This document shows positions 20,607 through 29,192 of a DNA stretch of 29,192 nucleotides, piece after piece. Origin of the DNA: a virus; the IMG/VR virus record IMGVR_UViG_3300021594_000967, positions 1 to 29,192 of that record. One strand, 5' to 3'. How positions within the stretch are numbered: the stretch's first letter is position 1; the number at the start of each line of letters is the position of its first letter. The notes below the pieces were generated by a model. That model was not told the DNA's origin. It searched no databases and worked only from the letters and a program-made list of their open reading frames with translations. A program made the translations under genes and the position numbers.

Positions 20607-21653
20607 TCAACCTTTGAAAACGTAAATTTGACCATCTGAAAGTTCTGCTACAATTTCCTGATCTGGTTTTGTAACCAAGTCTTTATATTTATTATCCGTG
20701 TATTTGTACTCATATACGTTGCGATAGTTAGGAAATGAGTACCACGAAGTATAAGTCGTTTGAATGGGGATTATTTCTAATAAACCATTGTTAATACGCA
20801 ATTCGGAGTCAAAGTAATTTCCCCATCGTGAGATACAAAGCGAGTCTCCAAGCTCGGCGGTAGCGATTCCTTTTACCACTGCTCTTGGATCGCTAGCTCT
20901 CGAAAAAAGCTTTACAACCTTAAGATCATGAACGGATTCAAAATCACGACGTATTTCGTTGAAGTATTCATCTGCTGTGAAAGCTTCAGATATTTTCTTT
21001 TTGTCAACAATCGAGTATTTCCCATCTATGAAAAATACAATCTGTTTTTCTTTTTTTGTTGCCTCTCCTAAGAAATATTTCTCATTCGGGTTCAGAAGGT
21101 TCCAAGCAACGATGTTTATGCGATATCTACCAACATAAGTTCCAGAACTACCATCCTTAAGATAATAACGCATTCCGGGAACTAATTCTCGTAGATTTAT
21201 TTTTTTGCCAGACAGTCCAGAAATTCTTTCAATTTCGGAATAGCTGTCACTATTCACTGGTAATAGCACGAGTTCTGTACCAGACCATGAATATACGAAT
21301 TTTCCTTCAAGGCCTTTTCCGGGACTGCATCCTCCACAGGAAAGAATAAAGAGTAGATTATCGACTGAGATTTCGAATTCAAATCCTCGGGGATCGTAGA
21401 CTCTAACGTAGGCGTTTCGAAAATTCCAATCGCTCTTATATCCTCCAACTTTTTTGTTGAGAACAAAGCCTTCCATTGGGGAGTTGTCAAATTCTTTTGG
21501 TTCGATATTTTTGTTTCGCCAACTTTCCCAAGATTGTTCTTTCCTCAGCGTCCCATTATTGTCGTAATAAATGACGTAAGCAAGTTGTTTTGTGTATGTG
21601 TCTGTTCGATTCTGAAACCCAACCTTAATTCTTCGCGGAATAAACATTGCCAT
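20607..21653 (-). CDS. Conserved phage protein, 348 aa
   Basis: N-terminal half has a strongly patterned sequence (IPRRIKVGFQNRTDTYTKQLAYVIYYDNNG...WESWRNKNIEPKEFDN...GFVLNKKVGGYKSDW...YDPRGFEFEISVDNLLFIL). It looks like a widespread, uncharacterised phage protein family. A CGGCSPGKGLEG segment follows and then a Tyr/Trp-rich, beta-type C-terminal half. No catalytic motif is evident. The start at 21653 overlaps a small membrane ORF (TAATG). Could be a non-virion regulator or a structural protein; context favours neither. Confidence 0.65.
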   Translation of the reverse strand: MAMFIPRRIKVGFQNRTDTYTKQLAYVIYYDNNGTLRKEQSWESWRNKNIEPKEFDNSPMEGFVLNKKVGGYKSDWNFRNAYVRVYDPRGFEFEISVDNLLFILSCGGCSPGKGLEGKFVYSWSGTELVLLPVNSDSYSEIERISGLSGKKINLRELVPGMRYYLKDGSSGTYVGRYRINIVAWNLLNPNEKYFLGEATKKEKQIVFFIDGKYSIVDKKKISEAFTADEYFNEIRRDFESVHDLKVVKLFSRASDPRAVVKGIATAELGDSLCISRWGNYFDSELRINNGLLEIIPIQTTYTSWYSFPNYRNVYEYKYTDNKYKDLVTKPDQEIVAELSDGQIYVFKG

Positions 21654-21912: not shown

Positions 21913-22161
21913 TTACTCAACCTCATCAATCACTTTGGGATTGCGTCCTCTCTCATACGATCTTTCAAACGCAACTTCTGTCCATTGATTGTTTTTCAAT
22001 CTGTACAAAATAACATCGTCAGGCACAGAAAGTCTACCTTCATCTTCGCGGATAGAGGCCTCTCTGATCGCAGAGAGGGCATGAGTTTTATTGTAATGAA
22101 TTTTGAATTTTGGAGATCTGCTATTGATTTTTGTGGCCCACGGCAACGGTAGATTATTCAT
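21913..22161 (-). CDS. Hypothetical protein, 82 aa
   Basis: Basic, soluble protein (KINSRSPKFKIHYNKTHALSAIREA). Translation is coupled to the last gene of the first NQVx array (ATGA overlap at 22158-22161). An 8-bp hairpin (22059-22078) lies in the coding sequence. No family recognised. Confidence 0.6.
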   Translation of the reverse strand: MNNLPLPWATKINSRSPKFKIHYNKTHALSAIREASIREDEGRLSVPDDVILYRLKNNQWTEVAFERSYERGRNPKVIDEVE

Positions 22162-22478
22162 TTTTTAACATACTCTCTTAAAATATAACCCCAAATTTGA
22201 TCGAAAACATTGCCACTCATTTGATCAGACATTAAGCTTGCGTCACGAAACCGAGTTTGTTTATTGATTTGATTTTGGATCTGGTGATAAGTACAAATCT
22301 GACCTGTGGACTGAGCTTGATCACATATCTGATTCCGGACCTGACTCCAGACCTGATTCCAGACCTGATTCTGGACCTGATCACTGACCTGATACCAGAC
22401 CTGATTCTCGACCTGATTCTTGACCTGACTCCGGACCTTATCTTGGGCCTCAAGCCGGACCTGATTAAATGTTTTCAT
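22158..22478 (-). CDS. NQVx-repeat protein, array A gene 7, 106 aa
   Basis: Last gene of the first array in reading order. After MKTFNQVRLEAQDKVRSQV come about ten tetrads of the form x-Gln-Val-x (NQVE, NQVW, YQVS, DQVQ and so on). A non-repeat C-terminal half of about 50 residues then follows, ending DQIWGYILREYVKK. It is the only member of array A with a long unique tail and may be the anchor copy. Its start lies inside the last codons of gene 6 (14-nt overlap). Function unknown. Confidence 0.65.
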   Translation of the reverse strand: MKTFNQVRLEAQDKVRSQVKNQVENQVWYQVSDQVQNQVWNQVWSQVRNQICDQAQSTGQICTYHQIQNQINKQTRFRDASLMSDQMSGNVFDQIWGYILREYVKK

Positions 22479-22632
22479 TTATTTGATGCCCGACTTGATA
22501 AAATACCTCAATCCAGACCCGATTCCGGACCTGATTCGAGACCTGATTCCGGACCTGATTCCGGACCTGATTCTCGACCTGATTCCGGACCTGATTCCGG
22601 ACCTGATTCTCGACCTGCTTAATCGTTTTCAT
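22465..22632 (-). CDS. NQVx-repeat protein, array A gene 6, 55 aa
   Basis: Starts MKTIKQVE, continues with nearly perfect NQVR/NQVE/NQVS tetrads for about 36 residues, then drifts (NRVWIEVFYQVGHQINENI). The stop TAA lies inside the ATGAAAACATTTAA start of gene 7; the start overlaps the gene 5 stop by 4 nt (ATGA). Shorter than 60 codons, but the open frame, start context and overlaps match its neighbours. Confidence 0.65.
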   Translation of the reverse strand: MKTIKQVENQVRNQVRNQVENQVRNQVRNQVSNQVRNRVWIEVFYQVGHQINENI

Positions 22633-22823
22633 TTATTTGCTCCCAAACCCGACCCCCAGACCTGATTCCAGACCTGATTCGAGATCTGACCCCGGACCTG
22701 ATACCAAACCTGATTCCGGACCTGATTCTCGACCTGACTCCAGACCTGATTCCGGACCTGATTCTCGACCTGACTCCAGACCTGATTCCGGACCTGATTC
22801 CGGACCTGCTTAATCGTTTTCAT
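22629..22823 (-). CDS. NQVx-repeat protein, array A gene 5, 64 aa
   Basis: Sixteen tetrads in exact register: MKTI-KQVR-NQVR-NQVW-SQVE and on to NQVW-GSGL-GANK. The C-terminus GSGLGANK is identical to that of gene 3 (23212-23394). A longer open frame reaches 23027, but its N-terminal part is the other frame of gene 4. The stop overlaps gene 6 by ATGA. Confidence 0.7.
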   Translation of the reverse strand: MKTIKQVRNQVRNQVWSQVENQVRNQVWSQVENQVRNQVWYQVRGQISNQVWNQVWGSGLGANK

Positions 22824-23073
22824 TTGTTTGTTTCTGAATCTGATTCCAGGCCCGATTCCAAGCCTGACCCCAGATCTTCTTAAAAACCCGCACCCCGACC
22901 AAATTCCGTACCTGATTCGAGACCTGATTACAGACCTGATTCTGTACCTGATACCAGACCTGATCACTGACCTGATTCCAGACCTGATTCTCGACCTGAT
23001 CCCAGACCTGATCCCAGACCTGATCACTGACCTGATTCTCGACCTGATCCCAGACCTGATTAAATACTTTCAT
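22810..23073 (-). CDS. NQVx-repeat protein, array A gene 4, 87 aa
   Basis: Starts MKVFNQVWDQVENQV, runs through about twelve tetrads, and ends with a distinct segment NLVGVRVFKKIWGQAWNRAWNQIQKQTNEND. The FFKK/VFKK...QAWN module recurs in array B (28839-29024), so the arrays share more than the short repeat. The stop is inside the gene 5 start (ATGAAAACGATTAA, 14-nt overlap). Confidence 0.7.
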   Translation of the reverse strand: MKVFNQVWDQVENQVSDQVWDQVWDQVENQVWNQVSDQVWYQVQNQVCNQVSNQVRNLVGVRVFKKIWGQAWNRAWNQIQKQTNEND

Positions 23074-23215
23074 TTACCTGATCCCATACCTGATCCCATA
23101 CCTGATCCCAGAACTGATGTCTGAACTGATTCTGTACCTGATTCCAGATTTGATTCGGGACCTGATCACTGATCTGAGACCAGACCTGATACGAGACCTG
23201 ATTAATCATTTTCAT
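23060..23215 (-). CDS. NQVx-repeat protein, array A gene 3b, 51 aa
   Basis: Tetrads with more drift than its neighbours: MKMI-NQVS-YQVW-SQIS-DQVP-NQIW... then three DQVW/DQVN units and ESI. The frame stays open although several tetrads have changed at the Val position (Ile, Phe), which favours coding over chance. It ends inside the gene 4 start (ATGAAAGTATTTAA) and starts by ATGA overlap with the gene at 23212. Confidence 0.6.
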   Translation of the reverse strand: MKMINQVSYQVWSQISDQVPNQIWNQVQNQFRHQFWDQVWDQVWDQVNESI

Positions 23216-23394
23216 TTATTTGCTCCCAAGCCCGACCCCCAGACCTGATCACTGACCTGATTCCAGACCTGATTCTCGACCTCACTCCAGACTTGATACC
23301 TGACCTGATTCCAAGCCTGATCATCAGCCCGATTACCGACCTGAAACCATATCTTATCCAAGACATGCTCCTCTACCTGATTAAATGCTTTCAT
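23212..23394 (-). CDS. NQVx-repeat protein, array A gene 3, 60 aa
   Basis: Starts MKAFNQVEEHVLDKIWFQVGNRADDQAWNQV, more diverged in its first half, then regular tetrads ending VWGSGLGANK, identical to gene 5. The nucleotide stretch around this shared end and the following start is also nearly the same at both places. The stop and the next start form ATGA. Confidence 0.7.
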   Translation of the reverse strand: MKAFNQVEEHVLDKIWFQVGNRADDQAWNQVRYQVWSEVENQVWNQVSDQVWGSGLGANK

Positions 23395-23536
23395 TTATTT
23401 GTGATTCCAAGTTTGATTCTAATTCTGATACTAGATGAAATAATAGCTGATTCCATATATGATCCCCAGCCTGATTCCAAGTCTGAATGAATAACTTAGT
23501 CTGGATATAAGTTTGGGCTTGATAAAATGTTTTCAT
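23381..23536 (-). CDS. Degenerate NQVx-type protein, array A gene 1, 51 aa
   Basis: First gene of array A in reading order. It keeps the MKTF start and the INESI ending, but the interior has drifted (YQAQTYIQTKLFIQTWNQAGDHIWNQLLFHLVSELES). The stop lies inside the next start (ATGAAAGCATTTAA). It overlaps the 3' end of the upstream YopX-like gene by 41 nt, so one of the two ends may be shorter in reality. Confidence 0.5.
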   Translation of the reverse strand: MKTFYQAQTYIQTKLFIQTWNQAGDHIWNQLLFHLVSELESNLESQINESI

Positions 23537-23942
23537 TTTGGTAATCACTTAGATTTAGCTGTTCAAAAATGTTTCCTACCACCTCGTAGTGTTCTTGATG
23601 CATATTTAACAGTGGTGCTACTTGACCATTTTTAGCATACTGGGATAAGAATGATGACATTTTTGCGTCAACACCCCAACTAGAATGGGCATCTGCCCAG
23701 AATACTTCTGTTGGATTTTCTTGAGGTTTAAAAAATTTGGTTACCAAAAGATCTCCTTCATAAATTTCAACACCGTTTTTATCTTTGAGTCCAGTATATT
23801 GTTGCCATACACAATCTTCGCTTGTTAACGTTGGTAGCTCCATAGACTCTATTGCGTCGTCTTGTATTTCTTTAGGAGTCATGCCATCAATAATAAACAT
23901 ATTGCGGTTTTTATTCCACACTCTAAATTTAATCTCTCTCAT
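23496..23942 (-). CDS. YopX-like protein A, 148 aa
   Basis: Start chosen at 23942 to match the MREIKFR beginning of its paralogs; a GTG at 23957 is an alternative. YopX features: MREIKFRVWNKN, then the core QQYTGLKDKNGVEIYEGDLL, and the end YEVVGNIFEQ. YopX-like proteins are common in phage and prophage early regions and have no established function. A 32-nt stretch around the core is identical to YopX-like B, showing recent duplication. The C-terminal ~18 residues overlap array A. Confidence 0.85.
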   Translation of the reverse strand: MREIKFRVWNKNRNMFIIDGMTPKEIQDDAIESMELPTLTSEDCVWQQYTGLKDKNGVEIYEGDLLVTKFFKPQENPTEVFWADAHSSWGVDAKMSSFLSQYAKNGQVAPLLNMHQEHYEVVGNIFEQLNLSDYQNENILSSPNLYPD

Positions 23943-23973
23943 TTTAATAAATCTCACCCAGCTATTAGAACCA

Positions 23974-24291: not shown

Positions 24292-24471
24292 TTATTTTAA
24301 ATAACGATTAATATTATCTAATACATAATATGCAGAACCAGTCTCCATGAGTTCATTAACTACATCCTGTAGAATCCATCTCAAATTATGTTTATAATCA
24401 TTAAAATCATCTCTAAGTTTGTTTATCTCTTCTCTGAGATCGTTTATTTCTTCTTTACTGCTTTCTAGCAT
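24292..24471 (-). CDS. Small coiled-coil protein, 59 aa
   Basis: The ATG at 24471 has GAGG at 4-nt spacing and overlaps the upstream stop by 7 nt (ATGCTAG). Residues 4-30 form a coiled coil (SSKEEINDLREEINKLRDDFNDYK), followed by a helix and an aromatic C-terminus. Function unknown. Its start layout is the same as at 27372-27378, where the paralog of its upstream gene is found. Confidence 0.6.
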   Translation of the reverse strand: MLESSKEEINDLREEINKLRDDFNDYKHNLRWILQDVVNELMETGSAYYVLDNINRYLK

Positions 24472-24689
24472 AAAACCTCGATATATAAATCTCTATCGAA
24501 GTGATAAATACATGCATACCGAGCGAGCCATTCTTCAAAATCACAACCTATAGGTTTGTTTTGACTATTCAAAAACTTTATCATATGAGAGTTATCCCAT
24601 ACAGCACCCTCTTTGTTTACAAGATTTTTAAATTTTTCTATATCAGCTTCGCTGTATACTACAAACATTCTTGGCTTAAATTGTTTCAT
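24465..24689 (-). CDS. KPRMFVVY-family small protein, copy 1, 74 aa
   Basis: Starts at 24689 behind AAGGAG. Conserved pattern shared with the gene at 27372: FKPRMFVVYxExDIExF, then V.K.GA.WD.SH.I.FLN, YACIYHF..DL..E.LC. Fixed Trp, His, Cys and Asp positions suggest a small folded enzyme or binding protein. Function not recognised. Its start sits inside the last codons of YopX-like B (14-nt overlap). Confidence 0.65.
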   Translation of the reverse strand: MKQFKPRMFVVYSEADIEKFKNLVNKEGAVWDNSHMIKFLNSQNKPIGCDFEEWLARYACIYHFDRDLYIEVLC

Positions 24690-25011
24690 TCTTGACTCCT
24701 TCAAAGATATTTCCAATGACAGTTTTTTCTGCCTCATCCATACGGATAATGTCTCCACCAGAGGGGAGACAGGCATAAAACATACAACTATCTTCCTCCC
24801 AGTTTACAACTAGCAATTCTTGAGAATTCCAATGGTCTGAAAGAATCAAGTCGCCCTCGTAAATTTCAACACCGTTTTTATCTTTGAGTCCTGTGTATTG
24901 TTGTGGCTCACTTAAACCACCATAAATACCTTGCGGATAGCTTTCGTAAATAGTCCAGTGGTGCCAAGTTTTATCAACATTACAATATGCTCTAAACTTA
25001 ATTTCTCTCAT
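24676..25011 (-). CDS. YopX-like protein B, 111 aa
   Basis: MREIKFRAYCNVDKTWHHW, core QQYTGLKDKNGVEIYEGDLI, end KTVIGNIFEGVKNETI. It is the closest paralog of YopX-like A, with an identical 32-nt core. The stop lies inside the start of the KPRMFVVY gene and its own start lies inside YopX-like C, both as 14-nt overlaps, making a three-gene chain. Confidence 0.85.
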   Translation of the reverse strand: MREIKFRAYCNVDKTWHHWTIYESYPQGIYGGLSEPQQYTGLKDKNGVEIYEGDLILSDHWNSQELLVVNWEEDSCMFYACLPSGGDIIRMDEAEKTVIGNIFEGVKNETI

Positions 25012-25405
25012 CTTTATTCCTTGCTAAATCTTCGCGGAACTGATTTAGCCACTTTAAGTTTGCCTCAATATCGATATTCTCTGGCTGAGGTTCATTCTCA
25101 AAAATATTTCCAGTAATCTGCATTGATTTTGGATCTACGGCACAATCTGCCCCCATACACATAAACCGAAAACGACCATCTAGAAATTCAACAGTAAATT
25201 TTTCGTTTAGAATGTCTCCCTCATATATTTTAACGCCATTTTTATCTTCGCGACCAATATATTGCTGGATACAAATACTGTCCTTTTCAGCAAAGGAAAA
25301 GATCTCGTTTAGATTAAAATGAGCCGGAAATGGTGGTAGCCAGCTATCAATGTCGCACCATCTGTTATTTCGGGTGTCCCAGCATCGAAACTTTAGTTCT
25401 CTCAT
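24998..25405 (-). CDS. YopX-like protein C, 135 aa
   Basis: MRELKFRCWDTRNNRWCDI, core QQYIGREDKNGVKIYEGDIL, then MQITGNIFENEPQPEN and a charged C-terminal tail (NLKWLNQFREDLARNKDERN). More diverged than A and B and with an extra tail. The stop lies inside the start of B (ATGAGAGAAATTAA). AGGA precedes the ATG at 11-nt spacing. Confidence 0.85.
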   Translation of the reverse strand: MRELKFRCWDTRNNRWCDIDSWLPPFPAHFNLNEIFSFAEKDSICIQQYIGREDKNGVKIYEGDILNEKFTVEFLDGRFRFMCMGADCAVDPKSMQITGNIFENEPQPENIDIEANLKWLNQFREDLARNKDERN

Positions 25406-27103: not shown

Positions 27104-27378
27104 TAGTGAATCTCTTTAAAAAGACCATTTGGGACATTGATAAAAAAACAATTCATGCCATCATGAAATGTATCACTCCATACATGGATGCGAGAGCATT
27201 GTGTTTTTTTATCTCTTTCTACCGATAGAACACCGAACGGAGTCGGCCTAATCATTGCGGCTCTTGTATTATAAATTCCGGCTAATCCGCCGCCCTCTTG
27301 TTTCAAAACCCAAGTAGGTTCATGAAATTGAATCTTGAAATTATATTTATTAACGCTACTTTCTACATTCGTTAACAT
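27103..27378 (-). CDS. Hypothetical protein, 91 aa
   Basis: Beta-type sequence with Trp/Gly-rich segment (PTWVLKQEGGGLAGIYNTRAAMIRPTPFGVLSVE) and a Cys-containing C-terminal half. The start overlaps the KPRMFVVY-family copy 2 stop by 7 nt (ATGTTAA), matching the arrangement at copy 1. Not recognised. Confidence 0.55.
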   Translation of the reverse strand: MLTNVESSVNKYNFKIQFHEPTWVLKQEGGGLAGIYNTRAAMIRPTPFGVLSVERDKKTQCSRIHVWSDTFHDGMNCFFINVPNGLFKEIH

Positions 27379-27578
27379 AGCAACTCCATATCTAAATCTT
27401 CATAAAAATGGTATATGCAAGCCCATTGATGAAATGCGGCCTGTTGATTCCAAACGTTTAGAAACATTATTCTATGTGATCCATCCCATATTGCACCTGC
27501 TTTCTCCACGACTTGTCGAAAATTCTCTATATCCTCTTCTTGGTATACCACAAACATTCTTGGCTTAAATATTTTCAT
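27372..27578 (-). CDS. KPRMFVVY-family small protein, copy 2, 68 aa
   Basis: Paralog of 24465-24689: MKIFKPRMFVVYQEEDIENFRQVV, GAIWDGSHRIMFLN, WACIYHFYEDLDMELLC. Some Lys/Gln positions differ and the middle is shorter by six residues. About 20 nt around KPRMF are also identical between the copies. The start follows the upstream stop directly (TAAATG). Confidence 0.65.
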   Translation of the reverse strand: MKIFKPRMFVVYQEEDIENFRQVVEKAGAIWDGSHRIMFLNVWNQQAAFHQWACIYHFYEDLDMELLC

Positions 27579-27820: not shown

Positions 27821-28012
27821 CTCAACAATCTGGTCAAGCATTTTTTTAGCTATTTTCAGGGCTGCCGCCTCATGACCTTCTTCGTTGACTTTATGAATAC
27901 ATTCTTCAATTTGTCTAAGGACTTCTTTTCTAAAGTCCGGTTGTCGTCTCAACCTTTCAATTACTGTTAAATTAAAAGATGAGATCATTTGATCTAATGG
28001 ATTAACACTCAT
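27797..28012 (-). CDS. Hypothetical protein, 71 aa
   Basis: Mostly helical (LTVIERLRRQPDFRKEVLRQIEECIHKVNEEGHEAAALKIAKKML) with an acidic end. The last codons (ADEGVDK) are read from the first copy of the junction repeat, and the start comes from the second copy. No family recognised. Confidence 0.6.
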   Translation of the reverse strand: MSVNPLDQMISSFNLTVIERLRRQPDFRKEVLRQIEECIHKVNEEGHEAAALKIAKKMLDQIVEADEGVDK

Positions 28013-28295
28013 TTGTCAACTCCTTCATCAGCGGCCCGAAAACAGATGTCGCTGACAACAAGCCCAATGTCAGACCTCGCCAACGAGATAGCGATAGATC
28101 TAACTCCACATATGATTCTGGATCTGATCCCGTAGTATCCCTGACCTGATCTTTGATCTGATCAAAAAGATGATCCTGAACGTAAATTAAGACTTGCCTC
28201 CGGACCTGAGATAATGGCTGATCACAAACTTGAATCCAATCCTGATTCTGAGCCTGAGTTCGGACCTGATGCCGGATGTGACTAAATGCTTTCAT
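28002..28295 (-). CDS. NQVx-related protein with unique C-terminus, array B, 97 aa
   Basis: Starts MKAFSHIRHQVRTQAQNQDWIQVCDQPLSQVRRQVLIYVQ, a drifted version of the x-Gln-Val-x tetrads. It ends in about 45 unrelated residues (SDPESYVELDLSLSRWRGLTLGLLSATSVFGPLMKEL). Like the 106-aa gene of array A it is the last gene of its array in reading order and carries a long unique tail. The start overlaps the previous gene by 14 nt (ATGAAAGCATTTAG). Confidence 0.6.
   Translation of the reverse strand: MKAFSHIRHQVRTQAQNQDWIQVCDQPLSQVRRQVLIYVQDHLFDQIKDQVRDTTGSDPESYVELDLSLSRWRGLTLGLLSATSVFGPLMKELTNEC
28009..28032. repeat. 24-nt gene-junction repeat, copy 2
   Basis: Identical to 27797-27820. Here the upstream gene reads it in another frame, as LMKELTN, and continues 11 nt into the next gene before stopping. 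Confidence 0.9.
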
Positions 28296-28485
28296 TTATT
28301 ACACCCTTAGCGAGACCCTTAATATGATCCCAACTCCCCTTATAGACCTGATCCAAAATTTTACTCTCTGTCATAAGTTTGAAATAGATTAATATAAGGG
28401 GATGTTTCTGAATTTGAAACTGGTTAAGGACTCCTTTATATTCTTGATCAACAGCCTCATCCCAAATATGCTTAAATATTTTCAT
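28282..28485 (-). CDS. Array B small protein, 67 aa, highly diverged
   Basis: Keeps the array start (MKIFKHIWDEAVDQEYKGVLNQF) and the ending VINESI set by the next gene's start, but the interior is no longer repeat-like (KHPLILIYFKLMTESKILDQVYKG). A member by position and ends only. Confidence 0.5.
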   Translation of the reverse strand: MKIFKHIWDEAVDQEYKGVLNQFQIQKHPLILIYFKLMTESKILDQVYKGSWDHIKGLAKGVINESI

Positions 28486-28500
28486 ACATCTGCTCCGCGA

Positions 28501-28662
28501 CTATTCATTGATTCGATCTAAGATCTGAATTAAGATCTGATCCTGTATCCTGCTCCATACCCAAGCCTGATCCCTAAGCTTAAAACACAACCCCAAATTT
28601 ACATTTGTCGAATACAATAATTGGTGATCAATATGGCTCCAGATTTTATTGAGCGATTCCAT
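28501..28662 (-). CDS. Array B small protein, 53 aa, degenerate
   Basis: Starts MESLNKIWSHIDHQL and ends RDQAWVWSRIQDQILIQILDRINE, with recognisable but worn x-Gln-Val/Ile-x tetrads at the end. It overlaps the upstream gene by 17 nt and has the AAATAAATG-type leader. Short, so the call is moderate. Confidence 0.45.
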   Translation of the reverse strand: MESLNKIWSHIDHQLLYSTNVNLGLCFKLRDQAWVWSRIQDQILIQILDRINE

Positions 28663-28834
28663 TTATTTCTTTCACAACCTGATCCAAGACCTCGTCCAAG
28701 ACCTCATCGACCTGATTCCCCATATAGCCCCAAACTTCTCCGAAAACCGGCTTCCAAACTTTATGGCGGATTTTGTTAGAAATATGAATGTGGATATGCT
28801 TCACGAGCAACTGTAGATGACTAAGCTCTTCCAT
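28646..28834 (-). CDS. Array B small protein, 62 aa, degenerate
   Basis: MEELSHLQLLVKHIHIHISNKIRHKVWKPVFGEVWGYMGNQVDEVLDEVLDQVVKEINGIAQ. The C-terminal third has tetrads (NQVD-EVLD-EVLD-QVVK). The leader TTAAATAAATG matches the other array starts. Four nt separate it from the upstream stop. Confidence 0.5.
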   Translation of the reverse strand: MEELSHLQLLVKHIHIHISNKIRHKVWKPVFGEVWGYMGNQVDEVLDEVLDQVVKEINGIAQ

Positions 28835-28838
28835 TTAT

Positions 28839-29024
28839 TTAATCCTTGACCTGACCCAAGACCTCATCACGAACCTGGTTCCAAGCTTGATCCCGGACCT
28901 TCTTAAAAAACTGCACCTCGACCAAATTCCAGACCTGATTATGAATCTGTCTCCAAACCTGATTCCAGACCTGTTTCTGAACCTGATTCCAGACCTTATT
29001 TTGGACCTCTTTAATCGTTTTCAT
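28839..29024 (-). CDS. NQVx-repeat protein, array B, 61 aa
   Basis: Clear tetrads: MKTIKEVQNKVWNQVQKQVWNQVWRQIHNQVW, then NLVEVQFFKKVRDQAWNQVRDEVLGQVKD. The FFKKVRDQAWN module corresponds to VFKKIWGQAWN of the 87-aa gene in array A, so these two are true paralogs. The start overlaps the upstream gene by 14 nt (ATGAAAACGATTAA). Confidence 0.65.
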   Translation of the reverse strand: MKTIKEVQNKVWNQVQKQVWNQVWRQIHNQVWNLVEVQFFKKVRDQAWNQVRDEVLGQVKD

Positions 29025-29192
29025 TTATTTTATTCCTGATGCGATCCCAGACCTGAGTACTGACCTGATTCCAGACCTGACCCCGGACCTGATTTTCGAG
29101 ATGATTCCAGACCTGATTCCAGCCACGCTTCTCGACATGATTCTGGTTGACCTGATACCATAGCTCATACCGGACATCATTCTCGACCTGAC
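29011..29192 (-). CDS. NQVx-repeat protein, array B, cut by the window edge
   Basis: C-terminal 59 codons of a further member; the start is outside the window. Tetrads with drift: QVENDVRYELWYQVNQNHVEKRGWNQVW, then NQVRGQVWNQVSTQVWDRIRNKINEND. The ending INEND and the 14-nt overlap with the next start match array A genes. Array B therefore continues to the right. Confidence 0.6.
   Translation of the reverse strand, partial: QVENDVRYELWYQVNQNHVEKRGWNQVWNHLENQVRGQVWNQVSTQVWDRIRNKINEND

Follow-up and report, generated by a model that had tools for sequence, protein, structure and literature searches.

Tandem tiny genes of a tetrapeptide repeat in a viral contig, a probable detached form of the DUF6745 repeat arm

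Introduction

The closest described counterparts of the repeats reported here lie inside long proteins of the DUF6745 family (PF20530), such as gp38 of the Mycobacterium prophage prophiGD102-1. Its array, located within one protein between an N- and a C-domain, follows the tetrapeptide plan y-Q/S/N-V/L-x and is built from in-register 12-nt units. A literature search retrieved no paper that describes DUF6745 or these tetrapeptide repeats. The window analysed here is a stretch of 29,192 nt (IMG/VR record IMGVR_UViG_3300021594_000967, positions 1 to 29,192). It has the plan, the main x residues and the 12-nt register in common with gp38, but its repeats form separate short proteins without a DUF6745 domain. 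In layout it resembles contig L069 (IMG/VR 3300023229_000108), in which overlapping short genes starting with MK and made of a 12-nt unit also lie on one strand. In L069, a repeat-less DUF6745 protein (the core) and a second conserved protein (protein A) are found beside the array, whereas neither was found within the 29 kb of the window. The isolated phage Ma-LMM01 has ribonucleotide reductase and ThyX genes like the window, and its core and A homologs, gp174 and gp175, stand side by side; unlike the window, it has no tetrapeptide repeats at this locus.

Two other systems invite comparison. Pentapeptide-repeat proteins have a small, a polar and an aliphatic residue in succession, as does an ANLx array (A-N-L). 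However, their period is five and not four, no Pfam pentapeptide match was obtained here, and they form a beta-helix, whereas AF2 predicts a helix (given low weight) for our repeats. Diversity-generating retroelements also limit variation to defined codon positions, but the present arrays lack four-state randomisation and their variation appears to spread by recombination.

Results and discussion

A first-pass annotation had described seven consecutive minus-strand ORFs at 22158-23536, starting with MK and made of an xQVx tetrapeptide from a 12-nt unit, all of which is borne out by the ORF coordinates and by TRF. In order of translation, these are paralog 1 (23381..23536, 51 aa, the most decayed of this cluster), paralog 2 (23212..23394, 60 aa, tail WGSGLGANK), paralog 3 (23060..23215, 51 aa, tail NESI), paralog 4 (22810..23073, 87 aa), paralog 5 (22629..22823, 64 aa, start at 22823, tail as in paralog 2), paralog 6 (22465..22632, 55 aa) and paralog 7 (22158..22478, 106 aa), in which the repeat degenerates and a unique C-terminal part follows. 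TRF places the minus-strand tandem array at 22329..23321, with about 83 copies of the 12-nt unit (score 426) and the coding-strand consensus TCAGGTC + N5. Successive ORFs overlap by 14, 4, 14, 14, 4 and 14 nt, so all six joints have the 4- or 14-nt overlap reported before. The majority of joints follow the pattern AAATAAATGAAA, where the stop codon shares bases with the start codon of the following gene. The 5' end of paralog 1 overlaps a YopX gene (23496-23948) by 41 nt, and paralog 7 shares 4 nt with the next gene (21913-22161). Short MK-start ORFs of a 12-nt unit with end-to-end overlaps are the layout of the split-form arrays described below. The conserved starts, the recurrent C-terminal tails and the identical layout in other phages support the view that these are separate coupled paralogs and not one broken long protein. 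The overlaps would couple translation, and one mRNA would then yield many variants.

The units are less regular than first described. Gln-Val had been called fixed, but it is only dominant, with Q retained in 95% and V in 86% of 42 window units (each counted without conditioning on itself) and gene 1 largely decayed. The fourth position does vary, as had been noted, but the residues on both sides of QV are variable and not one alone. Overall, the window units are more degenerate than those of DUF6745-linked arrays.

The limits 22158-23536 hold for the seven ORFs, but the family is larger. A second minus-strand cluster at 28002-29190 contains six more divergent QV relatives with similar joints, far more decayed than those of cluster 1. 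It consists of member a (29011..29190), truncated by the contig end; member b (28839..29024, 61 aa), with an 'NxVxVxFFKK' stretch in common with paralog 4; the strongly diverged members c (28646..28834, 62 aa, TAAATG joint kept), d (28501..28662, 53 aa) and e (28282..28485, 67 aa, tail NESI); and member f (28002..28295, 97 aa).

Among the other genes of the window are those for PhoH, both ribonucleotide reductase subunits, ThyX, SSB, an HNH protein, a ferritin-like protein, a glycosyltransferase and three YopX proteins. The YopX-family (PF09643) trio lies on the minus strand (23496-23948, 24676-25011 and 24998-25405), and the first of these leads straight into the QV array. Two minus-strand genes (24465-24776 and 27372-27578) form a paralog pair with KPRMFVVY-type sequence in common; the product of the latter starts with MKIF, at a TAAATG joint resembling those of the QV genes. 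Another minus-strand gene, 20607-21653, encodes a phrog_2475 protein without assigned function, with homologs in Clostridioides phage LIBA6276, Vibrio phages pv27 and phiTY18, and Synechococcus phage BUCT-ZZ01. DNA matches to the Clostridioides, Vibrio and Synechococcus phages were rejected as array relatives, the matching part being this gene, and the relatives of the window phage identified through it are without the array. The Pfam/PHROG matches DUF4816, IpaB_EvcA and phrog_5189 were discarded, being weak and below cut-off or low-complexity-like. No end repeats are present in the 29,192-bp record. The 29,192-base window is a fragment, and no match to DUF6745, its N-domain or the A gene was found in it. 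Since the PF20530 C-terminal domain model gave no match over the cut-off, the window was not assigned to the DUF6745 family; as its array runs off the contig end, the absence of core and A is to be read as absence in a fragment.

Next, coding potential was assessed with a frame-blind count over all five-base spacers between successive TCARGTC cores (3790 spacers from 181 loci), with expected stop numbers derived from position-wise base composition. In the QV frame, one stop was observed against about 191 expected, compared to 87 against 79 in the +1 frame and 179 against 191 in the +2 frame. The variable codons of the window itself contain no QV-frame stop (4.7 expected), with eight in the +2 frame (6.7 expected). 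Since the depletion is confined to the QV frame, translation in this frame appears to be under selection in the family. Judged from these sequences, the QV family is protein-coding, with strong selection against QV-frame stops. This supports the translation proposed by the first-pass annotation and contradicts a picture in which the frames of relatives are broken by stops.

A protein query matched 79 viral loci, which fall into two classes: long proteins (about 270-560 aa) with an internal array, and clusters of short MK-start ORFs, with up to 16 array ORFs per locus. As the short proteins have no conserved stretch on which a profile could be built, genomes were scanned with a DNA pattern for the short form (MK-start plus three units). 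It retrieved 63 stretches in viral contigs, compared to one match in bacterial and archaeal genomes totalling 257 Gb, on a contig that carries a long-form gene. Short MK-start arrays are nearly virus-specific. A tblastn search of GenBank phages with the repeat gave no match to the short form, a null made uninformative by low-complexity masking. Two contigs show other arrangements. The two ends of the 102.6-kb contig L095/L141 (IMG/VR 3300010234_000004) each carry many TCAGGTC units, which lie on opposite strands (22 forward and 75 reverse). In L041 (IMG/VR 3300027573_000779), ten QV-type short ORFs with more degenerate repeats are spread across several kb, without a tight operon.

The long proteins contain PF20530 (E = 1e-45 for the L015 protein). 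Of 39 records searched, 21 contain this domain above cut-off, all of them viral and repeat-bearing; it was found in none of 14 control genomes. Array-bearing viral records often encode a DUF6745 ORF of about 290-340 aa. There are 41 repeat-less DUF6745-type ORFs, a number in which some contigs are represented twice. In 38 cases, QV genes are found on the same strand less than 1 kb away, and the ORF usually touches them. In most other DUF6745 proteins, a comparable array sits within the protein. In a table of non-redundant core loci, each with 1.5 kb of flank or more, cores with an internal array had no separate QV genes in 53 cases and had them in two, while cores without one had separate QV genes in 24 cases and lacked them in seven. 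Internal and separate arrays are thus near-exclusive (53/2 vs 7/24, Fisher p = 5e-13) in a sample obtained partly with repeat-based queries. Among loci found via the core alone, separate arrays occur at two of eight repeat-less cores; the split form, being a minority there, is one variant and not the rule. Pseudomonadota seldom carry DUF6745 (2 of 299 genomes). On the Nocardia farcinica plasmid NZ_LN868940.1 (L156, 570-1932), a DUF6745 gene is apparently frame-shifted inside its repeat array, with the N-domain, QV stretches and C-domain in different frames.

Protein A is a conserved protein of about 115 aa, encoded upstream or downstream of the DUF6745 core. It has an invariant QGD, an ETGHxH (or EVTGHxH) motif and further invariant His residues, and ends like RQREYTPEGFRRAAD. 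Of 231 core loci, 188 have it, and with few exceptions the two genes share a strand and are no more than 600 nt apart. Among 50,697 phage records, DUF6745 and A were found in the same 11, including the pairs gp174/gp175 of Microcystis phage Ma-LMM01 and gp38/gp37 of prophiGD102-1. Core and protein A are also neighbours on a Nocardia plasmid, as well as in one proteobacterial genome. In the Manatee Spring phage MW202476.1 (L155, 7353-8657), an A homolog left unannotated in the record lies directly downstream of the DUF6745 gene. For core and A, the searches made matched no solved relative and no known function. In Ma-LMM01, both sit among genes for DNA polymerase, exonuclease and uracil-DNA glycosylase. 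These belong to the middle, replication class, while the early block comprises gp054-gp063 (PMC5780444). From their position, gp174 and gp175 are probably middle genes as well.

Taken together, the ORFs of cluster 1 and cluster 2 are best read as translated paralogs that represent a detached and multiplied DUF6745 repeat arm, to which we assign a probability of roughly 0.6. The family membership of the window is inferred, as core and A are missing from the fragment and both were shown in relatives; in the window phage, the two genes would lie beyond the contig end.

The arrays themselves vary between close relatives. Outside the array, five contigs match one another at 99.8-100% identity over stretches of 4.8-6.2 kb (for L096, identity was checked on the core region; L101 has 10 mismatches in 4.9 kb), and their array genes differ. 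The differences comprise the presence or absence of a whole gene, a recombinant gene of 89 vs 61 aa and an in-frame fusion. The array of L101 has one additional gene, with units absent from the other haplotypes. As these differences rest on metagenome assemblies of repeats, mis-assembly could explain collapses, but hardly the new units. Arrays evidently change faster than their flanks, through in-register gain, loss and fusion of units and genes. The suggested expansion in steps of four codons agrees with this, whole units and genes being gained, lost or fused in frame, as does the comparison of copy number between near-identical phages, which differ in whole in-frame genes and fusions. Phase variation, also suggested, finds no support, since the 12-nt unit preserves the reading frame and the spacings between cores are nearly all multiples of 12.

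In the QV and SV frameworks of 101 internal arrays, Trp, Arg and Gly each make up about one third of the x residues, and the QL, SL and NL frameworks have a similar composition. Hence, one main x set recurs in five frameworks made of different DNA units. Among the 101, no long array is fixed for one x residue. The order of x is random, with 749 adjacent identical pairs against 739 ± 19 expected over the 101 arrays; some block duplication is visible. Most internal arrays use the x codons TGG and GGG plus either AGG or CGG, and the latter two occur together in only 2 of 78 DUF6745-internal arrays (the window's own not included). This near-exclusivity implies that x sites are not freely mutagenised. 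Synonymous sites of the framework are near-uniform inside an array and differ between genomes. A small founder alphabet is, on this evidence, shuffled within arrays, and selection for the residue mixture is the simplest reading. The SSLx array of MW202476 was considered as a frame-shifted QV repeat, which was rejected as its DNA, AGC AGC CTC NGG, is an independent unit; its x set is similar to that of QV arrays.

An AF2 model of paralog 4 is a single long helix (pLDDT 91, pTM 0.40), and that of an internal array has low confidence. Little weight is given to these models because a four-residue period fits a regular helix awkwardly. PDB sequence searches and a fold search of the long protein gave nothing usable, and PADLOC models did not match the QV protein, core or A. 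The repeats would form elongated multivalent modules that act with, and physically contact, the DUF6745 core. Composition would count over order, the mixture being Trp, Arg, Gly and further residues at x and Asp together with Ala, Gly or Asn at y. Gene neighbourhoods suggest the replication or middle phase of infection as the probable arena. For the QV proteins, a multivalent binding or scaffold role is favoured. A bolder and still doubtful proposal is that protein A, the DUF6745 core and tetrapeptide arrays in cis or trans make up a three-part phage and bacterial system, a modular composition-coded polymer. The mixed alphabet (Trp/Arg/Gly with Asp/Ala/Gly) would be selected while its order is free, arrays would be remade by recombination, and in some phages the polymer would have been split off and multiplied as operons of tiny proteins.

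Other explanations were weighed against the same data. The QV proteins might be a fast-diversifying set of effectors or decoys, whose differing exposed x/y strings engage or distract a host protein in counter-defence or superinfection control, with new strings supplied by recombination. The fast in-register rearrangement among (nearly) identical phages, the many paralogs per operon, the wide x and y alphabets of short-gene arrays and their near absence from bacterial genomes would all suit such a role. However, the random order and kept composition of x in internal arrays suit composition better than specific recognition, PADLOC gave no match, and core and A of Ma-LMM01 lie outside the early host-takeover block, which makes this rather unlikely. 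It is more improbable that the clusters are decaying, mostly neutral relics of an array once linked to a DUF6745 core that the phage no longer carries. Most of the repeat is indeed gone from cluster 2 and paralog 1, and the window has no core or A gene, but all 13 ORFs are still open, most are overlap-joined, and cluster 1 has 0 stops where 4.7 are expected.

The uniform synonymous sites were the reason for considering an element acting as DNA or RNA (a minisatellite, a protein-binding or a sponge sequence) with incidental open frames. The unit is strictly 12 nt and its 7-nt core TCARGTC is almost invariant at synonymous sites within a genome. Against this, stops are depleted in the QV frame alone, starts and tails are conserved, and one tetrapeptide plan is written in different DNA units (CAGGTC, AGCGTC, TCGGTC, CAGCTC, TCGCTC), leaving such an element very improbable. 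Least credible is randomisation of the x and y codons by targeted mutagenesis of the diversity-generating-retroelement type. Variation is concentrated at x1 and y2 and framework sites are uniform, as expected for it, but Arg is encoded by AGG or CGG, with both in 2/78 arrays although they are synonymous. Moreover, neither a template repeat nor a reverse transcriptase was found among the approximately 30 proteins scanned in the window, a fragment. The earlier label 'diversity-generating' is therefore kept for the fast in-register rearrangement of arrays and dropped for targeted mutagenesis.

Conclusions

The reading of the window genes as a detached, multiplied DUF6745 repeat arm ties puzzling tiny repetitive phage genes to an uncharacterised protein family and to a second unnamed partner gene. 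DUF6745 is already catalogued. No account of its detached multi-gene form, of protein A as a partner or of the maintained alphabet seems to exist in the literature searched, and there is a small possibility that the module as a whole constitutes a new type of system. Protein repeats are seen here moving between cis and trans forms, with a residue composition that is conserved despite random order. This opens the function of DUF6745 to testing; members of the family occur in phages of Mycobacterium and Microcystis and on plasmids of Nocardia and Streptomyces.
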